NCBI GenBank assembly: GCA_029194675.1
Contig: JARFXP010000001.1
Coordinates: forward strand, 1,666,501-1,730,500
DNA: 64,000 nucleotides
Source of the DNA: Nitrospira sp.
Lineage (GTDB): Bacteria > Nitrospirota > Nitrospiria > Nitrospirales > Nitrospiraceae
Reading direction: 5' to 3'
Shown piece after piece: positions 12,820 to 24,046 of the stretch. The notes beneath the pieces are model-generated. The model was not told where the DNA came from. It saw nothing but the letters and a program-made list of their open reading frames with translations, and made no database searches. The position numbers and the translations under genes are program-made. Every line of letters starts with the position of its first letter. The stretch's first letter is position 1.

Positions 12820-12906
12820 ATGGACTACATGGCGGTCAAAGATCAGGTCAAGGCTTACGTTTCGGAAGACGGATATGCCACGACGATTCAGCGAGTCTCG
12901 GATTAA
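12820..12906 (+). pseudogene. Short C-terminal-like coding remnant
   Basis: A 28-codon frame (MDYMAVKDQVKAYVSEDG... ending QRVSD) that looks protein-like and ends exactly where the opposite-strand isochorismatase remnant ends. I do not recognise it. Probably the last codons of a gene whose 5' part is gone. Confidence 0.25.
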
Positions 12907-13222
12907 TTATCAGCTGCTGACCAACCCAATCTGTATCGTGGAGCAAGCCGCTCAATGACTTCGGCGGTTGTGGCGACTTCGCCAAAGATGCCGCCTTCCA
13001 CGCCGATCATGGCTAATGAAGCTTTGTGTAGGTCGGGATCACCCGAAGCGCAGGCATCGCTCACAGTGATACAGCGGTAGCCGAGGTCGATTGCAGCACG
13101 CAACGTCGAGCTGACGCACACTTCTGTGGTGACGCCCGTTAGAATGAGTGTTTCAACGCCGCGCTTCGTCAGCATCTGTTGTAATCCCGTATGAGCAAAC
13201 GCGCTATAGCCAGGCTTGTCGA
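12903..13222 (-). pseudogene. Isochorismatase-family hydrolase, N-terminus lost
   Basis: About 107 residues matching the second half of a cysteine hydrolase of the isochorismatase family: VIDKPGYSAF carries the catalytic Lys and TLILTGVTTEVCVSST the nucleophile Cys. The first ~110 residues, which should hold the catalytic Asp (DxQ motif), are missing because the frame runs at 13222 into the diverged repeat shared with 1151-1330. A GTG at 13244 would permit translation of a fragment, but it cannot be catalytic. The repeat therefore marks the breakpoint. Confidence 0.75.
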
Positions 13223-13406
13223 TAACTGATGCATAGGCATCCACTTGCTAAACCTTACTGTGGAGAAAATCAACACGTCCACCACACGTTGTCCGTGAAT
13301 GTGATCGAAGAGGCCGCCGAATAGCAGAAGGATATCGCAGCCAACAAACGAGTGCGCGATGAAGCCTATCCGGCCGACAGCGTCTTCGGTCGCGCCGCTC
13401 AGCGAC
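13222..13406 (+). repeat. Diverged 180-bp repeat, copy 2
   Basis: Direct-orientation partner of 1151-1330. Its left edge truncates the isochorismatase gene and its right edge lies 7 bp before the vapB start. Copy 2 contains an in-frame TAG where copy 1 reads CAG, so both look like decayed copies. Confidence 0.7.
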
Positions 13407-13412
13407 ACGCAT

Positions 13413-13605
13413 ATGTCGTACTACGCGCAACATCGACGACCAGCTCCTCAGACGCCCTGGACAACTGACCGACGTTCAGGAGAAGACGCAACTCGTACGC
13501 TTCGGACTCGAAACCCTTATTTCACGCGAAGCCGCGAAGCGGCTTGCTCGACTGGGCGGCAGCGAACCCTAATTGAAAGGCATCCGCCGGCGTCGCCCCG
13601 CCTAG
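13413..13605 (+). pseudogene. vapB: VapB-like antitoxin, frameshifted and with a stop
   Basis: From 13414 one frame reads CRTTRNIDDQLLRRPGQLTD, then EKTQLVRFGLETLISREAAKRLARLGG, the shape of a ribbon-helix-helix VapB antitoxin. Two lesions are visible. The ATG at 13413 is one base out of frame with RTTRNIDD, so an extra T after the ATG breaks the start. A TAA at 13570 interrupts the C-terminal toxin-binding tail, which would otherwise run (LKGIRRRRPA) to TAG 13603, 2 bp before vapC. If the base calls are right the antitoxin is not made in full. Confidence 0.65.
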
Positions 13606-13607
13606 GT

Positions 13608-13979
13608 ATGCCCACTCTGGTCGACACCTCCCTGTGGATCGACCACTTTCGTACCAATTCCTTCGCCCTCCGACGGCTGCTGGACGATGACCTGGTCATG
13701 TGCCACCCGCTCGTCATCGGGGAAATTGCCTGCGGCAACTTGAAACATCGATCTGAGGTGCTCGAGTCTCTGGCCGCGTTGCCTACCACGCCCATCATTG
13801 AATATCAGGAACTCCTGACTTTTATCGCAACCCATAAGCTCTTCGGACAGGGTTTAGGATGGATCGACGTACATCTCCTCGCCTCGACAATGCTCCGGCA
13901 GGCGACACTCTGGTCTCTCGATCAGCCTCTACGACGGGCTGCCAGAAGACTGCGCTGTCATTTTGAATCGCCCGACTGA
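13608..13979 (+). CDS. vapC: VapC-type PIN-domain ribonuclease toxin
   Basis: A 123-residue PIN protein. LVDTSLWIDHF holds the first catalytic Asp, VIGEIACGNL the Glu, and GWIDVHLLAST the later Asp of the acidic site. Such toxins cut RNA, commonly initiator tRNA or rRNA, and are held inactive by VapB. ATG 13608 starts 2 bp after the natural vapB stop, the usual coupled arrangement. All catalytic residues are present although the cognate antitoxin gene looks damaged, so the toxin may be poorly translated, or controlled by another VapB. Confidence 0.82.
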   Translation: MPTLVDTSLWIDHFRTNSFALRRLLDDDLVMCHPLVIGEIACGNLKHRSEVLESLAALPTTPIIEYQELLTFIATHKLFGQGLGWIDVHLLASTMLRQATLWSLDQPLRRAARRLRCHFESPD

Positions 13980-14514
13980 TCGATCGTTCCCTACGCTTCA
14001 CAATCGGAACAATTCGGATCAGACAAAGGTATCCGACCCTTTATAAATTCCCTCACTTGCCGTTAGCGACCGTTCCTTTCTGCTGCACCCAATAATCCGC
14101 TGTTTCCATTGGATGTATGACAACCCATATCTCCAGCCACCTGGGCCTACCCGCCCGCGCCCCACCGCGTGCCCCTCGTCGAGTCAAGCTATTCTAGACA
14201 ATCTAACAGCCGAAAACCGCCTGCCAAACGCAAGCCGACGGCGCCGCTCGCCCGCAGTCCGAGCGAGCGACGCGATAAGGAATCTTTCGCGCGCTTACCG
14301 ACTACTCCCCCGCCGAGCCGGAGCGCTACAATAGTGGGTTTTTCATCACGCAGAAAAAGAATTGACACCTCTCCTGGTCTTGGGCTATAGCTCCGCCATA
14401 GAAAAGGCCGTTTAAAAATCCTATCCCTACTTTCTCCAGGCGATGGCGTATGGCATCGGTAAGGAAATCGGGAGAAACTGCGGCCACAGCCACTGCCGCC
14501 CACGGGAGGGCCAA
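13980..14514. other. Left flank of the KAP island
   Basis: About 530 bp without a complete gene. It contains the last 22 codons of an IS91-type transposase (14129-14197) and then unrecognised sequence up to the KAP start. An in-frame ATG at 14443 exists for the KAP gene, but the better ribosome-binding site supports 14515. Confidence 0.45.
14129..14197 (+). mobile_element. IS91-family transposase, C-terminal tail fragment
   Basis: The frame reads ISSHLGLPARAPPRAPRRV then KLF and TAG, which is the C-terminal end of IS91/ISCR-like Y2 transposases. The same SHLGLP segment follows the larger transposase piece near 19270, in the same orientation. Only the tail survives here, so it marks the left border of a former rolling-circle element next to the KAP gene. 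Confidence 0.6.
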
Positions 14515-17508
14515 ATGGCAGCGCCTAAGCAGACTGTGCCCCCGCCTTCCAAAGGCGTGCCGAACCAGACGTCGGATGACGACTTTGCGGCGGAACCTGC
14601 GCCCACTACCGATCCTCCAAAGACCTATGCGGTGACACTGGTCTTCGATACGGAGAAAGGTGTCCGGCTTGCGCAGCCCAAGCGTTATCCCGTCGTCGTG
14701 TCGGCGCAGCTCGCGCGCGTTCTGGTGCGCGCGGCCAGTATTGCTCCAACTTCCGAACCACCGCTTCAATTCAGCACGCTGCTGATAGCGATGCTGGTCG
14801 ACGAGGACAAACGCCTCGAAACGCAGCTCAAGTCTCTGCAGGGGGTGAATTTCGAGGCCATTGCACGCAAGCGAGCCTACAACGAGGCATCGCTTCGCAG
14901 TCTCAACGAAGGCACGCTCAGGGGCGATTACCTCGCTTCGATGTCGGCGCGCGAGGCTCTCGAGGAAACCGAGCGAATTGCGCGCGCGACATCCGGCCCG
15001 GTTCTCGACATCCGGCACCTCAATGCGGCCTACCCCATTCTCGAAAAATGGCACTTGAAGGACTTCGCCGATTTCCAGATCGATCGACTCGACTGGGCGC
15101 GTGCCGTGGGCTCGGACATGGCGCGACAGTTTCCAGTCGAGCGGACTTACTGGATGCGATACGCGGATCGCGCCGCGCCTGTACCGCTCACCTCGTTCAG
15201 CGCCGACGTGTACACGCAGGAAGACCTCCTGGGCATCGATCGCAGCGTCGATGCGCTGGCGCTCCTCATGGCCTCCACGCGCACGGTGACGCCGCTCGCC
15301 ATCGGCGTGTTCGGCCCCTGGGGCTCGGGCAAGAGCTTCTTCATGCGTCACCTGCAGAAGCGGATCGTTGGGCTCCGCAAGGACGAGCAGGACCGGATCG
15401 ACTCGTGGGTGGAGAAACGAGAGAAAAAATCCGCGAAACCGGAGGATGCACCTCTCTACTTCGGCGAAATAGCACAGGTGGAGTTCAACGCCTGGCACTA
15501 CAACGAGGGCAATCTCGTCGCGAGTCTCGTCGAGCAGCTGTTCCGCAATCTCCGGATCCTGCCCAACGACGGCGACAAGGAGCTCGACGCACGGCGCGCG
15601 AACATGCTGATGCAGCTCAAGGTACTGAACAGTGATCTGACTACGGTCGAAGCGACCGTCGCAACCGCGAAACAGAACGTCGAAACCGCCAAGACGAACG
15701 TAGCCCACGCCGCAAGGGATGCCGCGGTGGCGAAGCACCAGGTCGACCAGCATGCACAGCAAATCAAGATCGAGAACGATGCATTGAAGTCAGAGCTCGG
15801 CAAACTCGATGACGCATTGAAGGCAGCCAGGCTCGAACCGGGCCACGTCGACCCCAACGCCGTAATTGCCGTGGCGTTCGGCCCGCTCGCGCCGTTTTTT
15901 GCGAAAGTTCAGGGCGCCAGCGAGGACGCGCGCAATCGGGTCTTCGATTGGAAAGAATTCTTCGGCCGGGTTTTCAGCACCAAAGGCCTCGTGATCATCG
16001 CCCTCTGCCTGCTGGTGCCCCTGGTGTTGACGCTCAAGGATGTGCTCGAAGCGCAATGGTCGGCCTTGATGGGTTCCGTGGCGGCTATTGTCACCGCGCT
16101 CGGCAGTGCCCTGGATGTATTCAAGCGCAGTCGCCAGCAGTTCGAAGCGAAGCTCGCGGCGCTCGATGCCGAGCAGGACCGACGCGCGGAGGAGGTTCGA
16201 AAGAACATTCAGCAACAGCAACTAGCCCTCACCGAAAACGCCAAGCAAAAGATTGCGGCGCTCAGCGCCGATCTCGAGACGCGCCGCAAGAATCTCGCAG
16301 AATGCGAGACGGCAATGAATCTCGCGGCCAGCAACCTTGCAGCCCGTGCGCAGGTACATGACGCACGGCTGCTCGAACGCGTCACAGCGGAGAAGAAAGT
16401 GCGTGCGGCGGAGGCGGAACTCGAACGGTTGTCGAGCGCGCTGCTGCTGGAGGAATTCATCACGGAACGCGCGAGTACCGACGAATACCGCAAGCAGCTC
16501 GGATTCCTGGCCCTGGTGCGCCGGGATATCGAGCGATTGTCAAAGCTGATCGATGACGCGAATCGGGAATGGCTTGCGACGGACAACTCGAAAGGAAAAC
16601 CTTCGATCAATCGCATCGTGCTCTATATCGACGATCTCGACCGCTGCAAGGAAAGCACCGTGCTTGCCGTACTCGAAGCCGTGCACCTGCTGCTGGCGTT
16701 CCCTCTGTTCGTCTGCGCCGTGGCGGTGGACCCGCGCTGGGTGGAGAAATGCCTGCGCGAGGCCCGTAAGCAGATGTTCATTGACGAAGATGCACCCAGT
16801 GGCCAGGTACCGACCGGAGCGACCGCGACCGTCGGCGACTACCTGGAAAAGATCTTCCAGATTCCCATCTGGATGTCGCCGATCGAGAGCCAGACTCGAG
16901 CGACCCTGGTCAACTCCCTGCTCGGACCAACCGCGGCTCCCGCTGCCAGGGCAACTGGCAATGGTGCCGACCACACCGCGACGGCGCAGGAGGATCAACC
17001 CGCCCAGGCAGGCGCGTTCAACACACTGGTGGCTTATGCGCGCGAGCGACCCGACCCGCTCAAGATACTTCCCGAAGAGGCAAAATTCGTCGGTGAGATT
17101 GCCGACCTGCTCAGCGACCGGCCGCGCGCCCTCAAGCGCTTCGTCAATACGTATCGTTTGCTGAAGGCGAGTCTTCCGGATATCGAGCGAACGGACTTCG
17201 TGACCGAGGATGCCTCGAGCCCGCATCGAGCCTGCCTGATTCAGCTCGCGTTCTTCACGAGCCATCCACGATTGGCGTCGGAGCTGGTTTCGAAGCTCGA
17301 GGCCGAGGCCACTGCCGCGAACGGTGCCTTGAGTCCGGCTCCGAAGGTTCAAACGACGTTCGGAGGTTGGCTCGAAAAGACGTTCCAGGAGAAATCACCG
17401 GTGCGCAAGGCACTCGAAGAAATCCCGGCAAGCAAGGCGATTTCGCTGCAGGTCTTCCAGCGGTGGCTACCGCTGACGAGCCGCTATCTTTTTCACCGCG
17501 CAAGCTAG
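14515..17508 (+). CDS. KAP-family P-loop NTPase with Clp-N-like N-terminus
   Basis: A protein of about 997 residues. Residues 1-200 form a helical region (LLIAMLVDEDKRLETQLKSL, LNAAYPILEKWHLKD) resembling a Clp N-terminal repeat. Walker A GPWGSGKS is near residue 266, and VEFNAWHYNEGNLVASL follows as in KAP NTPases. A long coiled coil (about 375-450) leads to two membrane helices (about 490-540), a second coiled coil (545-660) and Walker B LYIDDLDRC near 705. Membrane segments inserted between the Walker motifs define the KAP family, whose member PifA of plasmid F blocks phage T7. The start at 14515 has GGGAGGG upstream; ATG 14443 would add 24 residues. Flanking IS91 pieces suggest acquisition by transfer; an antiphage role is inference. 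Confidence 0.85.
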   Translation: MAAPKQTVPPPSKGVPNQTSDDDFAAEPAPTTDPPKTYAVTLVFDTEKGVRLAQPKRYPVVVSAQLARVLVRAASIAPTSEPPLQFSTLLIAMLVDEDKRLETQLKSLQGVNFEAIARKRAYNEASLRSLNEGTLRGDYLASMSAREALEETERIARATSGPVLDIRHLNAAYPILEKWHLKDFADFQIDRLDWARAVGSDMARQFPVERTYWMRYADRAAPVPLTSFSADVYTQEDLLGIDRSVDALALLMASTRTVTPLAIGVFGPWGSGKSFFMRHLQKRIVGLRKDEQDRIDSWVEKREKKSAKPEDAPLYFGEIAQVEFNAWHYNEGNLVASLVEQLFRNLRILPNDGDKELDARRANMLMQLKVLNSDLTTVEATVATAKQNVETAKTNVAHAARDAAVAKHQVDQHAQQIKIENDALKSELGKLDDALKAARLEPGHVDPNAVIAVAFGPLAPFFAKVQGASEDARNRVFDWKEFFGRVFSTKGLVIIALCLLVPLVLTLKDVLEAQWSALMGSVAAIVTALGSALDVFKRSRQQFEAKLAALDAEQDRRAEEVRKNIQQQQLALTENAKQKIAALSADLETRRKNLAECETAMNLAASNLAARAQVHDARLLERVTAEKKVRAAEAELERLSSALLLEEFITERASTDEYRKQLGFLALVRRDIERLSKLIDDANREWLATDNSKGKPSINRIVLYIDDLDRCKESTVLAVLEAVHLLLAFPLFVCAVAVDPRWVEKCLREARKQMFIDEDAPSGQVPTGATATVGDYLEKIFQIPIWMSPIESQTRATLVNSLLGPTAAPAARATGNGADHTATAQEDQPAQAGAFNTLVAYARERPDPLKILPEEAKFVGEIADLLSDRPRALKRFVNTYRLLKASLPDIERTDFVTEDASSPHRACLIQLAFFTSHPRLASELVSKLEAEATAANGALSPAPKVQTTFGGWLEKTFQEKSPVRKALEEIPASKAISLQVFQRWLPLTSRYLFHRAS

Positions 17509-17548
17509 CGCGAGGTTTCACCTCGCCAGCCTGGCGCGGCAGGAGCGA

Positions 17549-17806
17549 TTAGCGGCGGCGGCCGGTCACCAGGTTGATCGGGCGGCCGAAGATCCCCCGA
17601 CGGAAGCCGTCAACTTGCATTGCAGCGCGCGGATTCGTGTTCTGACGGCGCATTTCCGCCAGCACATCGGGCGGGAGATTGATCCGGAATTCGCCGCTGG
17701 CAGCCGTGTCGTTACGCATTTTTCTGAGACTCCGCTCTCGTTGGACCGTTTCTTCTGCGTCACCGGCCGCTTCGGGCAGGTGCGCGTATGCAGTTTGCTT
17801 AACCAT
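17549..17806 (-). CDS. Hypothetical 85-residue protein, doubtful
   Basis: A frame convergent with the KAP gene (MVKQTAYAHLPEAAGDAEE..., ending INLVTGRRR). GEFRINLPPDVLAEMRRQN has a plausible helical pattern, but there is no strong ribosome-binding site and I recognise no family. It may be a real island gene or chance. Confidence 0.3.
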   Translation of the reverse strand: MVKQTAYAHLPEAAGDAEETVQRERSLRKMRNDTAASGEFRINLPPDVLAEMRRQNTNPRAAMQVDGFRRGIFGRPINLVTGRRR

Positions 17807-18030
17807 GATCCGTACATAGTGTGCCGGGATTCACACTGTTTCCAATGTCGCAAATTGCGCACTTCATTATGTTCGGGTCTGATTGGTGTGTAGGCGCGGC
17901 GCGAGTCCATTCGCTACAAAATTCTGACACACCTTTGCCGACATCCCTGTCGTCCGCGCACTGTGATATTGCGCACGCCGCGTGAAATGCGACAGCGCGA
18001 TTCCGCGTGAAATCGCGCAGATTCAGCCCC
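17807..18030. other. Intergenic stretch of the KAP island
   Basis: No gene seen. It contains repeated TTGCGCA-like words (near 17853 and 17965) and presumably the promoter for the secreted-protein pseudogene. Confidence 0.3.
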
Positions 18031-18426
18031 ATGAAGAAAATCGTGATGTAGCTGGTGATCGCACTGGCCGGAACCTACGGCACCGCCGCGGTGAACCTGT
18101 CCGAATCCGGTGCAAACCGATTTCTGAACGACCTCGAGCATCTCTCGCTGTCGGCTCAGGGCAAGGAATACTGTGCACGCCTGCACGACGACCTGAAAGT
18201 TTCCACCCAGGACCACAGCGCCGATCCGCCGGCGGATTTCGAGGGCGGCCGCGACGAGTTCTGCAACTATGTGAGCGAAGCGGCGAAGGGCATGGACCTG
18301 CTCGGTGCGGGCACTCACGTGACACGCGATGATTTCACCGTCACGCGCAGCTGGCTGCACCTGTGGACGGCCCACGTCAGCTACAACGAGGACCGCATCA
18401 CTACGATGTCACGCGTGAACGTCACT
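18031..18426 (+). pseudogene. Secreted hypothetical protein, amber codon and truncation
   Basis: ATG 18031 gives MKKIVM, then TAG (18049), then LVIALAGTYGTAAVNLSESG, so the stop falls inside an otherwise good Sec signal peptide. The mature part (FLNDLEHLSLSAQGKEYC..., HDDLKVSTQDHSADPPADFE) continues to about 18426, where the frame runs into the IS91 transposase fragment. It is therefore broken at both ends. No family recognised. Its base composition matches the KAP gene, so it probably came with the island. Confidence 0.55.
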
Positions 18427-19301
18427 CTTCACAGTGGTGCTCGACGGTGTGTACTTAAACCGCGACGGCGCGGCGGTCTACGAGGCGGCGCCTCCCACGG
18501 TGGAAGAGCTTGAATTTCCACTCGCCAAGATCATCACGCGCACCATGCGCCTATTGACGCGCCTGGGGGCTCTCATTAAGGAAACCGACCAGACGTACCT
18601 CGCCGAAACGGACACCGATGGGGCGCTCAAATCCCTGCAAGCCGCCTCGTGCGCCTATCGTATTGCGCTGGGTCCGCGCGCCGGTCAAAAAGTGCTGAGC
18701 TTGCAAAGCCTGCCGAGCGTAACCAGGCCGTCCAGCCCAGAGCTGCGAGTCAACGCGCACGGCTTTAGCTTCCATGCGGCGCTGCGCTGGCGCTCCGATG
18801 AGCGCGCAGAACTCGAACAGCTCTGCCGCTATATCACCCGGCCGCCCATCGCTAACGAACGGCTCAAACGTAATCACGCCGGCCAAGTCGTGCTGCAACT
18901 GAAGAGTCCCTACAAAGACGGCACCCCCCATATGGTCATGGAGCCGCTGGAGTTCATGGAGCGTCTGGCGGCCCTGGTGCCGCGCCCGCGTTTACATCTG
19001 ATCCGCTTCCACGGCGTGCTGGCGCCCAACGCGAAGTTGCGCCGTCAAATCGTTCCCGCTCCGGCAGAGCGTGCCGCCGCGCCCCCGACCGATCACGCGT
19101 CTGCCCAGGGAGAAGCGCCGCGCATGAGCTGGGCCCGGCTGCTCAAACGGGTCTTCGACATCGACATCGAACACTGCCCGAACTGCAGCGGCGCTTTGAA
19201 GATCATCGCCGCCCCTTCGTCAGGCTCAGGACAGGCATCGAAGCTCCGCTAGTGATCGTCAAGATCCTCAGCCACCTGGGCCTACCGCATCAAACAAAGG
19301 G
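18427..19301 (+). pseudogene. IS91-family transposase, 5'-truncated and interrupted
   Basis: About 270 residues of the C-terminal half of an IS91-type transposase: VVLDGVYLNRDGAA, YRIALGPRAGQKVLSLQ, LCRYITRPPIANERLK, PRPRLHLIRFHGVLAPNAKL, and the Cys pair in IEHCPNCSGALKIIAA. The catalytic N-terminal half (HUH and tyrosines) is missing: the piece begins abruptly at about 18427 inside the island. After LKIIAA the frame is broken by a roughly 40-bp insertion containing CTTCGTCAGGCTCAGGAC, a sequence like a common dispersed repeat; the transposase then resumes as VIVKILSHLGLP in another frame. It is not functional. It is in the same orientation as the tail at 14129. Confidence 0.8.
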
Positions 19302-19768
19302 TCGCCCATCTCGAAGGCTCCGGTCAAGCGGGCACAGTCCATCGTGCCCCTCCCATTCTGCGAAGGGGGCAAGATCTCAGACGATGTCTCTCCTCGCCAT
19401 GCCGGTCACGTGACTCCGTCGCATCCCGGTTGTCTTCGTCAGTGGTGTTAGCTCTCAGCTGAGCCGCACCAGTCACCCATCAGGATCAAGGCACAGGAGC
19501 GAGCCTCATGGAGAATCGACTCCAACCCCTGGCACGTCGTGCCCCAGACCACCGTCGGTTCCCGGTCACGTCCACCGGATAGAGGCACAGGATGTCTGGC
19601 TGCCAGCGGGCTGGCGCCACCCCCGTGCTGGCTCATGACCGAGGCGTCCCAGTCCCCCACACCACAGGCAAGGGAGAAGACGGGGTGGCAACTGAAGCGA
19701 ATCGGGAGTGCGGGATCGAGCCCCAACCCCTTTGCGAGCTCCCAGTTCCACCCCTGCTCCGTTCACGG
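19302..19768. other. Region between IS91 and IS110 remnants
   Basis: About 465 bp with no gene. Part of it lies just 3' of the IS110 transposase and could be that element's non-coding end. I could not identify the terminus or a guide-RNA structure with confidence. Confidence 0.35.
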
Positions 19769-20134
19769 TCAGCCGAAGGCGCGCGCCAGATCGAACGACA
19801 CCTGCTCGCGCAACAGGTGATCACAGGTCCGCGCCAATTGATGCGCCACGGCCTTGAGCGCCACCAACGGATGCGTCCGCGCCTGCTTCCGCTGATAATA
19901 CTTCCGAATCACGCCTTCATAGCGAATGGCGAAGTGAGCCGCTTCAATAAACGCCCAGCTCAAATACTTGTTGCCGTTTTTTGTATTGCCTGCCCCTTTG
20001 CGTTTACCGTTGCTCACGTGCTCGCTGCCGACGCAGCGACAATAGGAGGCGAAGTGCCCGACGGTCGCAAACCGCCGCATGTCGCCGGCTTCCATGACCT
20101 GGGTTGTCAATAGTGGACGCCATGAATTGCCGCC

Positions 20135-21046
20135 TCACGCCGCCAGCTGTTGACGAGCCCACTGCTGGGCAAACACCGCGGGCGAGCAATTTCCCAGCCT
20201 GGAATGCCGACGCTGACGGTTATAGAAGAGCTCGATGTACTCCGTGATCTCTCGCCGAGCCTGCTCCCGTGTTTCATACCGCCGGTGGTGCACCAGCTCA
20301 TTCTTGAGCGTTCCCCAGAAACTCTCCATCGGCGCGTTATCATAGCAGTTGCCCTTCCGACTCATAGACGGGGTCAGGCCGAACTGCCGCAATTGCGCTT
20401 GATAGTCCTGGGCACAATATTGAGAGCCGCGATCAGAATGATGAATGAGCCCCGGGGCCGGGCGCTTGGTGTCGAGAGCGTTCCTGAGCGCCCCCTGCAC
20501 CAAGTCCGTCGTCATCCGCGCCCCCATCGCATGCCCAACCACCTCACATGTATACAGATCTTTGATCCCCGCCAGATACAACCACCCTTCTGCGGTGGGG
20601 ATATACGTGATGTCGGTGACCCAGGTCTCGTTCGGGCGCGTGGCGACAAACGTTTGGGCCAAGACATTCTCCGCCACCGGCAGCGAGTGCTTTGAATCCG
20701 TCGTGGTCGTGAACCAGCGCACCTGTTTGCAACGTAGTCTCAGTTTCTTGCGTAGCCGTTTGATGCGTCCGACCCCAGCGGGGAACCCATCCTCACGCAA
20801 TTCCGCTTGGAGACGTTCCGGCCCATAGGTCTGCCGGGTGCGCACATGCGCGGCCTGGATCGCCACTTCTAGGCGCGCGTTCTCCTGAGCGCGCTTCGAG
20901 GGACGGCGCGTGCGCCAGGCATAGTACCCACTTCGGGACACCTCCAGCACCCGACACAACACACTCAGGGGATACTGGGGCCGCAGCGTCCTCATGAGCG
21001 CGTACCGGGCAGCTGCGCCTTGGCAAAGTACGCGGTGGCTTTTTTT
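20135..21046 (-). CDS. IS3 OrfB, integrase-core transposase
   Basis: The DDE (rve) domain of an IS3 transposase, about 300 residues, read from the A7 slippery run at 21040-21046 by -1 frameshifting from OrfA; an internal ATG at 20995 (MRTLRPQYPL) could also serve. TWVTDITYIPTAEGWLYLA carries the first Asp, IHHSDRGSQY the second, and NAPMESFWGTLKNE the Glu. HTH_21-like sequence (SGYYAWRTRRPSKR) precedes the catalytic core. No lesion is visible, so this is the likeliest active copy in the window. Confidence 0.88.
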   Translation of the reverse strand, partial: KKSHRVLCQGAAARYALMRTLRPQYPLSVLCRVLEVSRSGYYAWRTRRPSKRAQENARLEVAIQAAHVRTRQTYGPERLQAELREDGFPAGVGRIKRLRKKLRLRCKQVRWFTTTTDSKHSLPVAENVLAQTFVATRPNETWVTDITYIPTAEGWLYLAGIKDLYTCEVVGHAMGARMTTDLVQGALRNALDTKRPAPGLIHHSDRGSQYCAQDYQAQLRQFGLTPSMSRKGNCYDNAPMESFWGTLKNELVHHRRYETREQARREITEYIELFYNRQRRHSRLGNCSPAVFAQQWARQQLAA

Positions 21047-21309
21047 AAGATGTCGCGCTCCATCCGCGCCTCGGCCAGGTCGCGCTTCAGCCGAGAGACC
21101 TCGGCCTCCAGCTCTGTCACGGGCCGTCGGCTCTCCCCCAGCGTCGCGAGCTGACCGCGCCGGGCTCGACACACCCAGTTCTCGAGCGTCTTGCCCGACA
21201 TGGCCAGGCGTCTTGCTACCTCTGGAATCGTCAACTTCTGTTCCAGGACCAGCTGCACCGCTTGCTCACGGAACTCCTTCGTATACTGCTGTCGCGGAAC
21301 TCGTTCCAT
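20992..21309 (-). CDS. IS3 OrfA, HTH DNA-binding protein
   Basis: A 105-residue OrfA: YTKEFREQAVQLVLEQ plus VARRLAMSGKTLENWVCRAR is the helix-turn-helix, followed by a leucine-zipper-like coiled coil (ELEAEVSRLKRDLAEARMER). It binds the element ends, and its ILKKA codons hold the A-rich slippery site (TTA AAA AAA G) that yields the OrfAB transposase by -1 frameshifting. Confidence 0.88.
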   Translation of the reverse strand: MERVPRQQYTKEFREQAVQLVLEQKLTIPEVARRLAMSGKTLENWVCRARRGQLATLGESRRPVTELEAEVSRLKRDLAEARMERDILKKATAYFAKAQLPGTRS

Positions 21310-21975
21310 CTCACACCTCCAGACCTCAGATCATAGGTTGAAGGCGTCCACTTTTTCGAGCCTAGCACACCAAGAGAATGGTGCCCGCCAAGATGGGGCC
21401 GATGCCGGGGACGGTCTGCAACAGCGCATAGCCGGGCTGGGTCCGCCCGGCTTCTCGGACTCGGTTCTCGATCGTACGCCCCTCGTGCTCCAGACACGCC
21501 AGGACCGCCAACAAACTCATGACTGCCTGCACCTGTTCGGGAAACGGCACGAGGGTCTGAATGTGTTCGGGGGTCAGTGCCCGGAGTCGCGGCAGAGAGA
21601 GGCGGCTCCCGGTGAGCCGCGTGAGCAGACTTTGCAGACTGAGCACCACCATGGTTTTGTGTCGGACGAGTTGACTGCGTTTGCGGAGCAGATCTCGGAT
21701 GGCCCGTTCTGCCTTGGGATCAATATAGCCGGTGGGAAGGATGCCCAGGCGGAGCAGGTGGGCTAACCACTGCGCATCGTGCTGATCGTCAACGTGCTTG
21801 AGCCCACTACACTGTGGAAGCGCGGGCGCATGGGCCAAGTGCACGCGGTAGCCGGCGTCCATGAGGCCATCAACCAACCAGTACCAATTATAAGTGGATT
21901 CGACCGCCGCACCCTGGACCGTAGCTCGATACGGCTCCAGCGTCGCGAGGATCACCGGCAGGCGACTGGGACAAG

Positions 21976-22677
21976 ATGGACAAGACACAACAGGACGCTC
22001 GCCTACAGAGTCATTGGGGCTATTGGGGGATCGAAGGGCCTAAACATTGGGCCATGTTGAGCCCGCAATATATGACGTGCGAAGCCGGCTCTGAGCAATC
22101 GCCCATCAATATCCACGCGCCTCACCATTCCAATACGCAAGAAACGCTGGCGTTCGATTACAAACCGACTCCTGTTCACGTCGCCAACAACGGTCATACC
22201 ATCCAAGTGGACTATAAATCGTACAGCGTGCTGCATGTGAACGACCGGACTTACCGCCTTCGGCAGTTTCATTTTCATGACCCCAGTGAACACGAGATTG
22301 AGGGAGTCCGTTACCCGATGGAGCTTCATCTCGTGCACCAGGATCCTAGGGGGCATATCGTCGTGGTCAGTGTCTTTCTGGAGCTCGGTGCCGCAAATCC
22401 TTGGATCGCCAATATCTGGAACTGGATGCCTAAAACGACGACCAAGGTGTTCACACCGCTCTTCATAAACGTCGCAGAGATTCTCCCGTCAAATACTCAC
22501 CATTATACGTACAAGGGTTCCTTAACCACACCGCCTTGTACCGAGGGAGTGCAGTGGATTCTGCTGGAAAAACCCGTTCAGATATCTGCCGATCAACAGA
22601 AGCGGTTGGCGGACATTGTCGGAGAGAATGCTCGACCGGTGCAATCCATCCATGGACGGGACGTGGAGGAGTATTAG
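21976..22677 (+). CDS. Alpha-carbonic anhydrase lacking a signal peptide
   Basis: A 233-residue alpha-class carbonic anhydrase, hydrating CO2 to bicarbonate at a zinc site. HWGYWGIEGPKHW is the conserved N-terminal motif, QSPINI follows, and the zinc histidines lie in LRQFHFHDPSEHE and MELHLVH. SLTTPPCTEGVQWILL is the substrate-pocket segment with the Thr. Bacterial alpha enzymes are normally exported, but only about 13 residues precede the HWGY motif, and the ATG lies 9 bp from the truncated edge of the IS110 remnant. The signal peptide and promoter were probably lost to that event; cytoplasmic or no expression is the inference. Confidence 0.85.
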   Translation: MDKTQQDARLQSHWGYWGIEGPKHWAMLSPQYMTCEAGSEQSPINIHAPHHSNTQETLAFDYKPTPVHVANNGHTIQVDYKSYSVLHVNDRTYRLRQFHFHDPSEHEIEGVRYPMELHLVHQDPRGHIVVVSVFLELGAANPWIANIWNWMPKTTTKVFTPLFINVAEILPSNTHHYTYKGSLTTPPCTEGVQWILLEKPVQISADQQKRLADIVGENARPVQSIHGRDVEEY

Positions 22678-22797
22678 CATGAATCCCCAGTCATCGGATG
22701 ACGTGAATCAGGCTCGGATCACCCCTGTTCGGCATCATGTGCTAGGCTCGAAAAAGTGGACGCCTTCAACCTATGATCTGAGGTCTGGAGGTGTGAG

Positions 22798-23115
22798 ATG
22801 GAACGAGTTCCGCGACAGCAGTATACGAAGGAGTTCCGTGAGCAAGCGGTGCAGCTGGTCCTGGAACAGAAGTTGACGATTCCAGAGGTAGCAAGACGCC
22901 TGGCCATGTCGGGCAAGACGCTCGAGAACTGGGTGTGTCGAGCCCGGCGCGGTCAGCTCGCGACGCTGGGGGAGAGCCGACGGCCCGTGACAGAGCTGGA
23001 GGCCGAGGTCTCTCGGCTGAAGCGCGACCTGGCCGAGGCGCGGATGGAGCGCGACATCTTAAAAAAAGCCACCGCGTACTTTGCCAAGGCGCAGCTGCCC
23101 GGTACGCGCTCATGA
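22798..23115 (+). CDS. IS3 OrfA (copy 2)
   Basis: Identical in protein sequence to the OrfA of copy 1 (105 residues, HTH plus coiled coil), with the A7 slippery run at 23061-23067. Intact. Confidence 0.85.
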   Translation: MERVPRQQYTKEFREQAVQLVLEQKLTIPEVARRLAMSGKTLENWVCRARRGQLATLGESRRPVTELEAEVSRLKRDLAEARMERDILKKATAYFAKAQLPGTRS

Positions 23116-23971
23116 GGACGCTGCGGCCCCAGTATCCCCTGAGTGTGTTGTGTCGGGTGCTGGAGGTGTCCCGAAGTGGGTACTATGCCTGGCGCACGCG
23201 CCGTCCCTCGAAGCGCGCTCAGGAGAACGCGCGCCTAGAAGTGGCGATCCAGGCCGCGCATGTGCGCACCCGGCAGACCTATGGGCCGGAACGTCTCCAA
23301 GCGGAATTGCGTGAGGATGGGTTCCCCGCTGGGGTCGGACGCATCAAACGGCTACGCAAGAAACTGAGACTACGTTGCAAACAGGTGCGCTGGTTCACGA
23401 CCACGACGGATTCAAAGCACTCGCTGCCGGTGGCGGAGAATGTCTTGGCCCAAACGTTTGTCGCCACGCGCCCGAACGAGACCTGGGTCACCGACATCAC
23501 GTATATCCCCACCGCAGAAGGGTGGTTGTATCTGGCGGGGATCAAAGATCTGTATACATGTGAGGTGGTTGGGCATGCGAGGGGGCGCGGATGACGACGG
23601 ACTTGGTGCAGGGGGCGCTCAGGAACGCTCTCGACACCAAGCGCCCGGCCCCGGGGCTCATTCATCATTCTGATCGCGGCTCTCAATATTGTGCCCAGGA
23701 CTATCAAGCGCAATTGCGGCAGTTCGGCCTGACCCCGTCTATGAGTCGGAAGGGCAACTGCTATGATAACGCGCCGATGGAGAGTTTCTGGGGAACGCTC
23801 AAGAATGAGCTGGTGCACCACCGGCGGTATGAAACACGGGAGCAGGCTCGGCGAGAGATCACGGAGTACATCGAGTTCTTCTATAACCGTCAGCGTCGGC
23901 ATTCCAGGCTGGGAAATTGCTCGCCCGCGGTGTTTGCCCAGCAGTGGGCTCGTCAACAGCTGGCGGCGTGA
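23061..23971 (+). pseudogene. IS3 OrfB (copy 2), frameshifted
   Basis: Same transposase as copy 1, but near 23580 the T of GCATGCGATGGGG is missing (GCATGCGAGGGG), so the frame breaks after YTCEVVGHA, and the rest (MTTDLVQGALRNAL onward, including the second Asp and the Glu) is in another frame. It is unlikely to be active, though OrfAB from copy 1 could act on its ends. Confidence 0.82.
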
Positions 23972-24046
23972 GGCGGCAACTCATGGCGTCCACTATTGAC
24001 AACCCAGGTCATCACGACGCTTGATAACGGTTTCAGGGAGGACATC

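Follow-up and report, generated by a model that had tools for sequence, protein, structure and literature searches.

A KAP-family NTPase gene with a Clp-N N-terminus between ISCR transposase fragments in a Nitrospira genome: a candidate anti-phage protein

A 64,000-nt stretch of a Nitrospira sp. genome (contig JARFXP010000001.1), here termed the window, carries an intact gene for a 997-aa KAP-family membrane NTPase. It is bordered on both sides by ISCR-type transposase pieces whose ends are complementary. The protein has an N-terminal region predicted to adopt the Clp-N fold, and the gene was most likely acquired laterally, as judged from its relatives. On balance we lean toward a reading in which it encodes a single-gene, membrane-anchored anti-phage protein of the abortive-infection type, with Clp-N as sensor, the KAP domain as switch and a membrane hairpin as effector; sequence and analogy are the grounds for this. 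What had been observed in an earlier reading made from the DNA letters (the sequence-only reading) is confirmed and sharpened here, and its interpretation is supported in part: the domain combination is not unusual, and a proposed pairing with a secreted-protein gene is not real. Features and their coordinates are listed in Table 1.

Table 1. Features of the KAP island and its edges, in positions of the window
Feature	Position	Strand	Basis or remark
IS91/ISCR-type transposase, last 22 codons and stop	14129..14197	+	translation ISSHLGLPARAPPRAPRRVKLF, then stop
ISCR 3′ end with oriIS-like motif AAAAGGCCGTTTAAAAATCCTATCCC	14198..14437	+	motif at about 14400-14432
Clp-N/KAP membrane NTPase gene, 997 aa	14515..17508	+	KAP_NTPase Pfam match
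Predicted Clp-N fold, residues about 60-220, two helical repeats	14692..15174	+	structure match and profile-profile comparison
Walker A GPWGSGKS, residues 267-274	15313..15336	+	near-invariant in 81 relatives
Insert separating Walker A from Walker B	15571..16425	+	coiled coil 353-437, membrane hairpin about 486-536, coiled coil 557-637
Walker B region LYIDDLDR, residues about 703-710	16621..16644	+	DD.DRC invariant (81 relatives)
Pseudogene of putative exported protein	18031..18429	+	in-frame stop read from sequence
ISCR clade Ia transposase fragment	about 18425..19286	+	truncated at both ends, frameshifted by short insert
IS110-family element	19296..21960	-	left end about 19296, right part truncated about 21957; interrupted by IS3-family copy

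The KAP protein and its N-terminal domain

The KAP gene begins with ATG at 14515 and ends with TAG at 17506-17508. Its 997-codon frame is unbroken and all conserved motifs are kept, and a ribosome-binding site, GGGAGGG (14504-14510), is found 4 nt 5′ of the ATG. The Pfam KAP_NTPase match scores 78.2 bits (E 8.3e-22) against a curated cut-off of 20 bits, which places the protein in the family. The sequence-only reading had described an NTPase of about 997 residues with coiled coils and two membrane helices between Walker A and Walker B, and Pfam, an AlphaFold2 model and hydropathy all bear this out. The model (mean pLDDT 74.5) displays two very long helices, residues 353-437 and 557-637. Between them, residues about 486-511 and about 517-536 are hydrophobic, helical in the model, and qualify as the membrane helices of a KAP protein; the Kyte-Doolittle mean is 2.47 at residues 492-511, and the membrane segment is modelled at low confidence (pLDDT < 50-66). 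Membrane helices within the NTPase are ordinary for KAP proteins, since they are described for the KAP protein Tmn also (PMC11846954). A Foldseek search with the whole protein was discarded as evidence (best E 0.01, prob about 0.3), its low confidence being attributed to the insert, and a whole-protein sequence search of solved structures gave no match. Codon usage departs only mildly from that of the window genes (GC3 0.743 against 0.661) and does not decide the origin of the gene.

A Clp-N-like N-terminus had also been claimed. Pfam is silent on this point, with no match in residues 1-246, so that the Clp_N cut-off is not reached; structure and profile comparisons nevertheless agree on a Clp-N fold. 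A model of residues 1-246 (mean pLDDT 70.5) has the N-domains of ClpA, ClpC, ClpB and Hsp104 as its top Foldseek matches in the PDB, with prob 1.00, E 0.002-0.03 and TM 0.5-0.74 depending on the target. Among the 50 best PDB rows are found chains titled ClpA, ClpB, ClpC, ClpC2 or Hsp104, with prob mostly 0.95-1.00, the exceptions being one chloroplast Clp complex chain and a small number of malarial proteins of proteostasis/secretion. The E-values of this search are modest (0.002 upward), and its weight rests on the consistency of the matches. ClpA N-domains are also the best PDB matches of a sequence profile built from the N-termini of 12 relatives (E 0.02, weak alone), and profile-profile comparison by hhalign with ClpC and ClpB N-domains from related genomes gave P of 5e-5 and 2e-5, respectively. 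An N-terminus lacking the Clp-N fold, which was to count against the original proposal, is thus not what structure prediction returned, and the predicted fold can be regarded as established.

Residues about 60-220 have the same fold as the N-domains of ClpA, ClpB and ClpC, at about 15% identity. The difference lies in what follows, an Hsp100 AAA+ pair in the Clp/Hsp100 proteins and a KAP NTPase here. Clp-N domains of Clp/Hsp100 proteins bind adaptors and substrates. No published Clp-N/KAP fusion was found in the literature searched, which leaves out most subscription journals. A 980-aa ORF of the same genome, with a weak Clp_N match, was set aside as no relative; by eye it is a ClpV-like ATPase among T6SS-like genes.

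ISCR fragments at the island edges

IS91-type pieces in the same orientation had been reported for both edges of the island, and both are indeed present on the + strand. The left piece is a transposase tail that is 83% identical, over 42 nt of DNA, to that of a related ISCR element (locus L124), and the oriIS-like motif found 3′ of it is 87.5% conserved at about the same distance 3′ of the L124 tnpA. In that element, whose transposase is 58% identical, tnpA, tail and the motif AAAAGGCC.TTTAAAA.TCCTAT follow one another without a break. Since the related element has the same motif past its transposase tail, the left piece represents the oriIS side. A blastn search of plasmids with the left end gave no match.

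The right piece was described as the larger C-terminal part of such a transposase. It is of IS91 type and C-terminal, with matches to NF052416 (ISCR clade Ia, E 3.8e-57) and PF04986 (E 5e-21) that identify it as a transposase, but as a fragment truncated at both ends; profile positions 219-473 are matched, the N-terminal part is missing, and the sequence beyond 19296 belongs to an IS110-family element and not to an ISCR. The tnpA frame is broken by an insert around 19214-19235. At this break lies a 22-bp sequence, CCTTCGTCAGGCTCAGGACAGG, of which four close variants occur elsewhere in the genome (1 mismatch to a degenerate pattern); a reversed control pattern gave none there. It looks like a short dispersed repeat.

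A 23-nt repeat marks the two boundaries. Its left copy forms the first 23 nt of the left transposase tail, and the right copy is at 19264-19286. The 18-mer CAGCCACCTGGGCCTACC occurs twice in the 5.2-Mb genome, both times at the island edges, where it ends one ISCR piece exactly and lies no more than 6 nt from where the other starts. Because this 18-mer is found nowhere else in the genome, the two pieces are seen as complementary parts of one transposase end. When the end of the right piece is joined to the start of the left piece, a continuous transposase C-terminus with oriIS is restored. The segment thus shares with ISCR elements (clade Ia, IS91-like) the tnpA C-terminal sequence and the oriIS-like 3′ end, and differs from them in holding fragments only: the N-terminal part of tnpA is missing, the KAP gene separates tnpA from the oriIS-like end, and no terIS was identified. 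No intact ISCR was found elsewhere in the genome with either the island or tnpA as query.

The preferred explanation of the coincident ISCR ends, as yet unproven, is a circle derived from rolling-circle replication. ISCR replication starts at oriIS and can pass terIS into adjacent DNA, and entry of circular ISCR products by homologous recombination has been proposed (PMC7707992). The KAP gene would probably have arrived on a segment derived from an ISCR. If rolling-circle replication begun at oriIS had aberrantly run beyond terIS, tnpA, oriIS and KAP would have ended up on one circle, and a break in the tnpA of this circle, at the 18-bp sequence, would account exactly for the present gene order. 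A history with no circle should also be considered, and we give it a somewhat less than even chance: the flanks may be unrelated ISCR remnants with ends that match by chance, or a tandem ISCR-KAP-ISCR array may have been reduced to them by separate deletions. Published work describes ISCR arrays in which copies are repeated, IS110 and IS3 elements have rearranged this region heavily, and the 18-mer sits in a well-conserved stretch of tnpA. By a rough estimate, the chance that two independent truncations of a gene about 1.5 kb long lie within about 20 bp of each other is about 1-2%, which is not negligible. What speaks against such a history is the precision with which the 18-mer ends one piece and nearly starts the other, together with its absence from the rest of the genome.

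A preference of IS110 for the 18-mer was rejected as the cause of the matching ends, as other IS110 copies have unrelated left flanks. IS110 copies with the same left end are present elsewhere in the genome, and the island ends on the right at this element. A search of 58 related genomes with both flanks located no empty site; right-flank matches are IS110 copies, and on the left side DNA homology to related genomes ends at about 13992, just beyond the PIN-domain (VapC-like) gene (13359-13979) that adjoins the island. To judge by this break, the stretch 13992-14128 may be foreign or rearranged too. An isochorismatase-family gene at 12903-13244 is seemingly truncated, with profile positions 89-175 of 175 matched. 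On the other side, two inverted IS3-family copies (20095-21369 and 22738-24000), both of which match a third copy, on contig C4 (L115), at about 99.6-99.7% identity, enclose the IS110 remainder and an alpha-type carbonic anhydrase gene (21976-22677) in a composite-transposon-like layout.

Between the KAP gene and the right transposase fragment is the gene that was read earlier as encoding a secreted partner of KAP. It begins MKKIVM and has TAG at 18049 (codon 7), followed by 125 open codons that extend into tnpA. It is a pseudogene, no homologue of which was found in plasmids or beside any of the fetched KAP relatives, and the claimed pair does not hold up.

With this gene and both transposase pieces broken, and the region crowded with IS elements, the KAP gene might itself be a functionless passenger, brought in long ago with an ISCR, now placed in a region that is decaying, and cut off from its original promoter by the oriIS junction 78 bp upstream. 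A scan of the + strand at 13980-14600 detected no sigma-70-like promoter, in a search that took in this one promoter type only. This is improbable in our view, given the intact 997-codon frame with its conserved motifs and the good ribosome-binding site.

Relatives, N-terminal domains and gene neighbourhoods

A conserved-peptide (alignment-query) scan of bacterial genomes yielded 292 relatives, the best 80 of which were listed. A protein-query search of genome contigs confirmed no close KAP relatives, and phage genomes searched with the KAP protein gave no match. A Clp-N-type N-terminus, recognised by the Clp-N region profile or by a canonical Clp_N match, is present in 27 of 78 listed relatives; 8 of the 27 had gone into the profile itself and so match it by construction, and the weakest matches (E about 1e-3) are uncertain. 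Other listed relatives have macro (8), EVE (7), WD40 (5) or TIR (4) N-termini, and trypsin-like, papain-like and peptidoglycan-binding domains are found on the KAP core in single cases. The combination of Clp-N and KAP, once thought unusual, is thus recurrent, and from these domain matches the KAP subfamily appears to be one that repeatedly swaps its N-terminal domain.

Two relatives display longer layouts. A planctomycete protein (L023, 7258-11280) has canonical Clp_N repeats (E 6e-31), then leucine-rich repeats, then the KAP NTPase, an NLR-like arrangement built around a membrane ATPase core. An acidobacterial protein (L018, 7687-11574) has TIR, a Clp-N-like region and KAP in that order.

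In a KAP-core tree, a quick build with long branches, the window gene groups with three genes of Myxococcus, to which it is 33-34% identical, at an SH-aLRT of 98%. Genes from Nitrosomonadaceae, Acidobacteriota, Bacteroidota and Desulfobacterota are on the branches beside them. The Clp-N label requires 12 changes on this tree, of which at least 7 are forced by well-supported branches. As hosts are scattered across neighbouring branches, the history of the KAP core looks dominated by lateral transfer. Among 58 further genomes from the genus and order of the host, only 3 gave KAP matches, all of them weak and partial. The lateral transfer proposed earlier is supported by this absence of a close relative and by the Myxococcus genes as nearest kin.

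Gene neighbourhoods give a mixed picture. In the window the KAP gene has as neighbours the PIN-domain gene, the IS110 and IS3 elements and the carbonic anhydrase gene, and no defence island is found there. Rhizobial-plasmid KAP/P-loop proteins (WP_069061674, WP_283074106 and WP_142781928 among them) have the same KAP core with membrane insert, at 26-31% identity; they differ in their N-terminus, which is a TIR domain or a longer array, Clp-N-like by eye. Unlike the window gene, these plasmid-borne relatives adjoin recognisable defence and toxin genes (DarT/macro, SIR2, VapBC, Fic) and integrases. PADLOC families matched number 174 among 129 KAP-adjacent proteins vs 49 among an equal number of distal proteins from the same loci, taken as control, with redundant models inflating both counts; the distinct defence-like proteins that can be named from the listed rows are about ten adjacent vs about seven distal, similar numbers that do not clearly set the adjacent proteins above the control. 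From these comparisons a defence association of the KAP relatives is plausible, and the PADLOC signals are suggestive only. Genes near the relatives are functionally diverse and include metabolic ones, and across 80+ loci no family besides KAP is common to more than 6. Homologues placed consistently in housekeeping operons, which would have told against a transferred defence module, are not what these neighbourhoods show.

The many non-defence neighbours and the want of a conserved partner gene would also suit an NTPase of conflict or signalling unrelated to phage, such as a switch for membrane stress or proteostasis, carried on a mobile segment by chance. The Clp-N domain would then bind misfolded peptides or Clp adaptors, in keeping with the binding of adaptors and substrates by this domain in Clp/Hsp100 proteins. 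We consider this unlikely, as the patchy spread over phyla, the near-absence from close relatives of the host and the modular N-termini, TIR among them, better suit conflict systems.

Possible function and comparison with known KAP systems

The sensor-effector reading is drawn from family membership, the modular N-termini, patchy transfer and the analogy with Tmn and PifA, and from these we infer a role in defence. It is favoured by the genes beside the plasmid relatives. Against it weigh the window neighbourhood with no defence island, the PADLOC-positive genes that are found farther away in the same loci as well as adjacent, and the diversity of the relatives' neighbours. The Clp-N domain, a peptide/protein-binding fold, would recognise a phage-made or infection-altered protein. 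Upon binding, the AAA+-like KAP domain would exchange nucleotide and assemble, and the coiled coils and membrane hairpin would relay this change to the inner membrane, which would be compromised so that phage production stops. The TIR, LRR, WD40, macro, EVE and protease N-termini of relatives would be interchangeable sensors or effectors on a common KAP switch.

More tentatively, this KAP branch could be a large membrane-anchored counterpart of the NLR/STAND immune receptors. In it a conserved switch with an ATPase-internal membrane hairpin would have Clp-N, TIR, LRR, WD40, macro, EVE or protease domains swapped onto it and would be spread between phyla by mobile elements, Clp-N serving as a sensor of pathogen proteins. 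The modular N-termini suggest that an NLR-like logic exists in bacteria beyond the STAND clade. A protein-binding domain that recurs before a membrane-inserted ATPase also offers a concrete handle, as Clp-N may be used as bait for the sensed ligand. In addition, the flanking pieces show that ISCR elements, familiar chiefly as vehicles of antibiotic resistance, can border KAP genes in other settings. KAP proteins in defence are already known, and the interest of the present case is moderate, chiefly from the recognisable protein-binding domain recurring on a membrane-inserted ATPase switch.

The KAP NTPases PifA, Tmn and QatA have known roles in phage defence, PifA being the T7 exclusion protein of the F plasmid. 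PifA resembles the window protein in the KAP Walker A region (PADLOC E 3.6e-5 over residues 234-293), and the match is limited to this P-loop region. Of the named defence proteins QatA matches best, with E 1.5e-18 in NCBIfam and E 3.3e-16 in PADLOC, across the P-loop and the Walker B half; at 66.8 bits the window protein is far below the 600-bit NCBIfam equivalog cut-off and is not classed as a QatA. QatA also has a separate C-terminal domain, and no qatBCD genes are found beside the window gene, the neighbours of which are IS remnants and the PIN gene. Much of Qat defence survived deletion of QatA (PMC13279940), so a KAP protein is not necessarily an effector, and this too weighs against the sensor-effector reading.

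Tmn is a single-protein anti-phage system of the KAP family, the mechanism of which is called unexplored (PMC11846954). The passages on Tmn considered here make no mention of a Clp-N domain. In PADLOC no model named Tmn matches the window protein up to E 1, in a library that may hold none. Compared by described layout alone, Tmn and the window protein are alike in being the product of a single gene, a KAP-family NTPase, with two membrane helices (PMC11846954).
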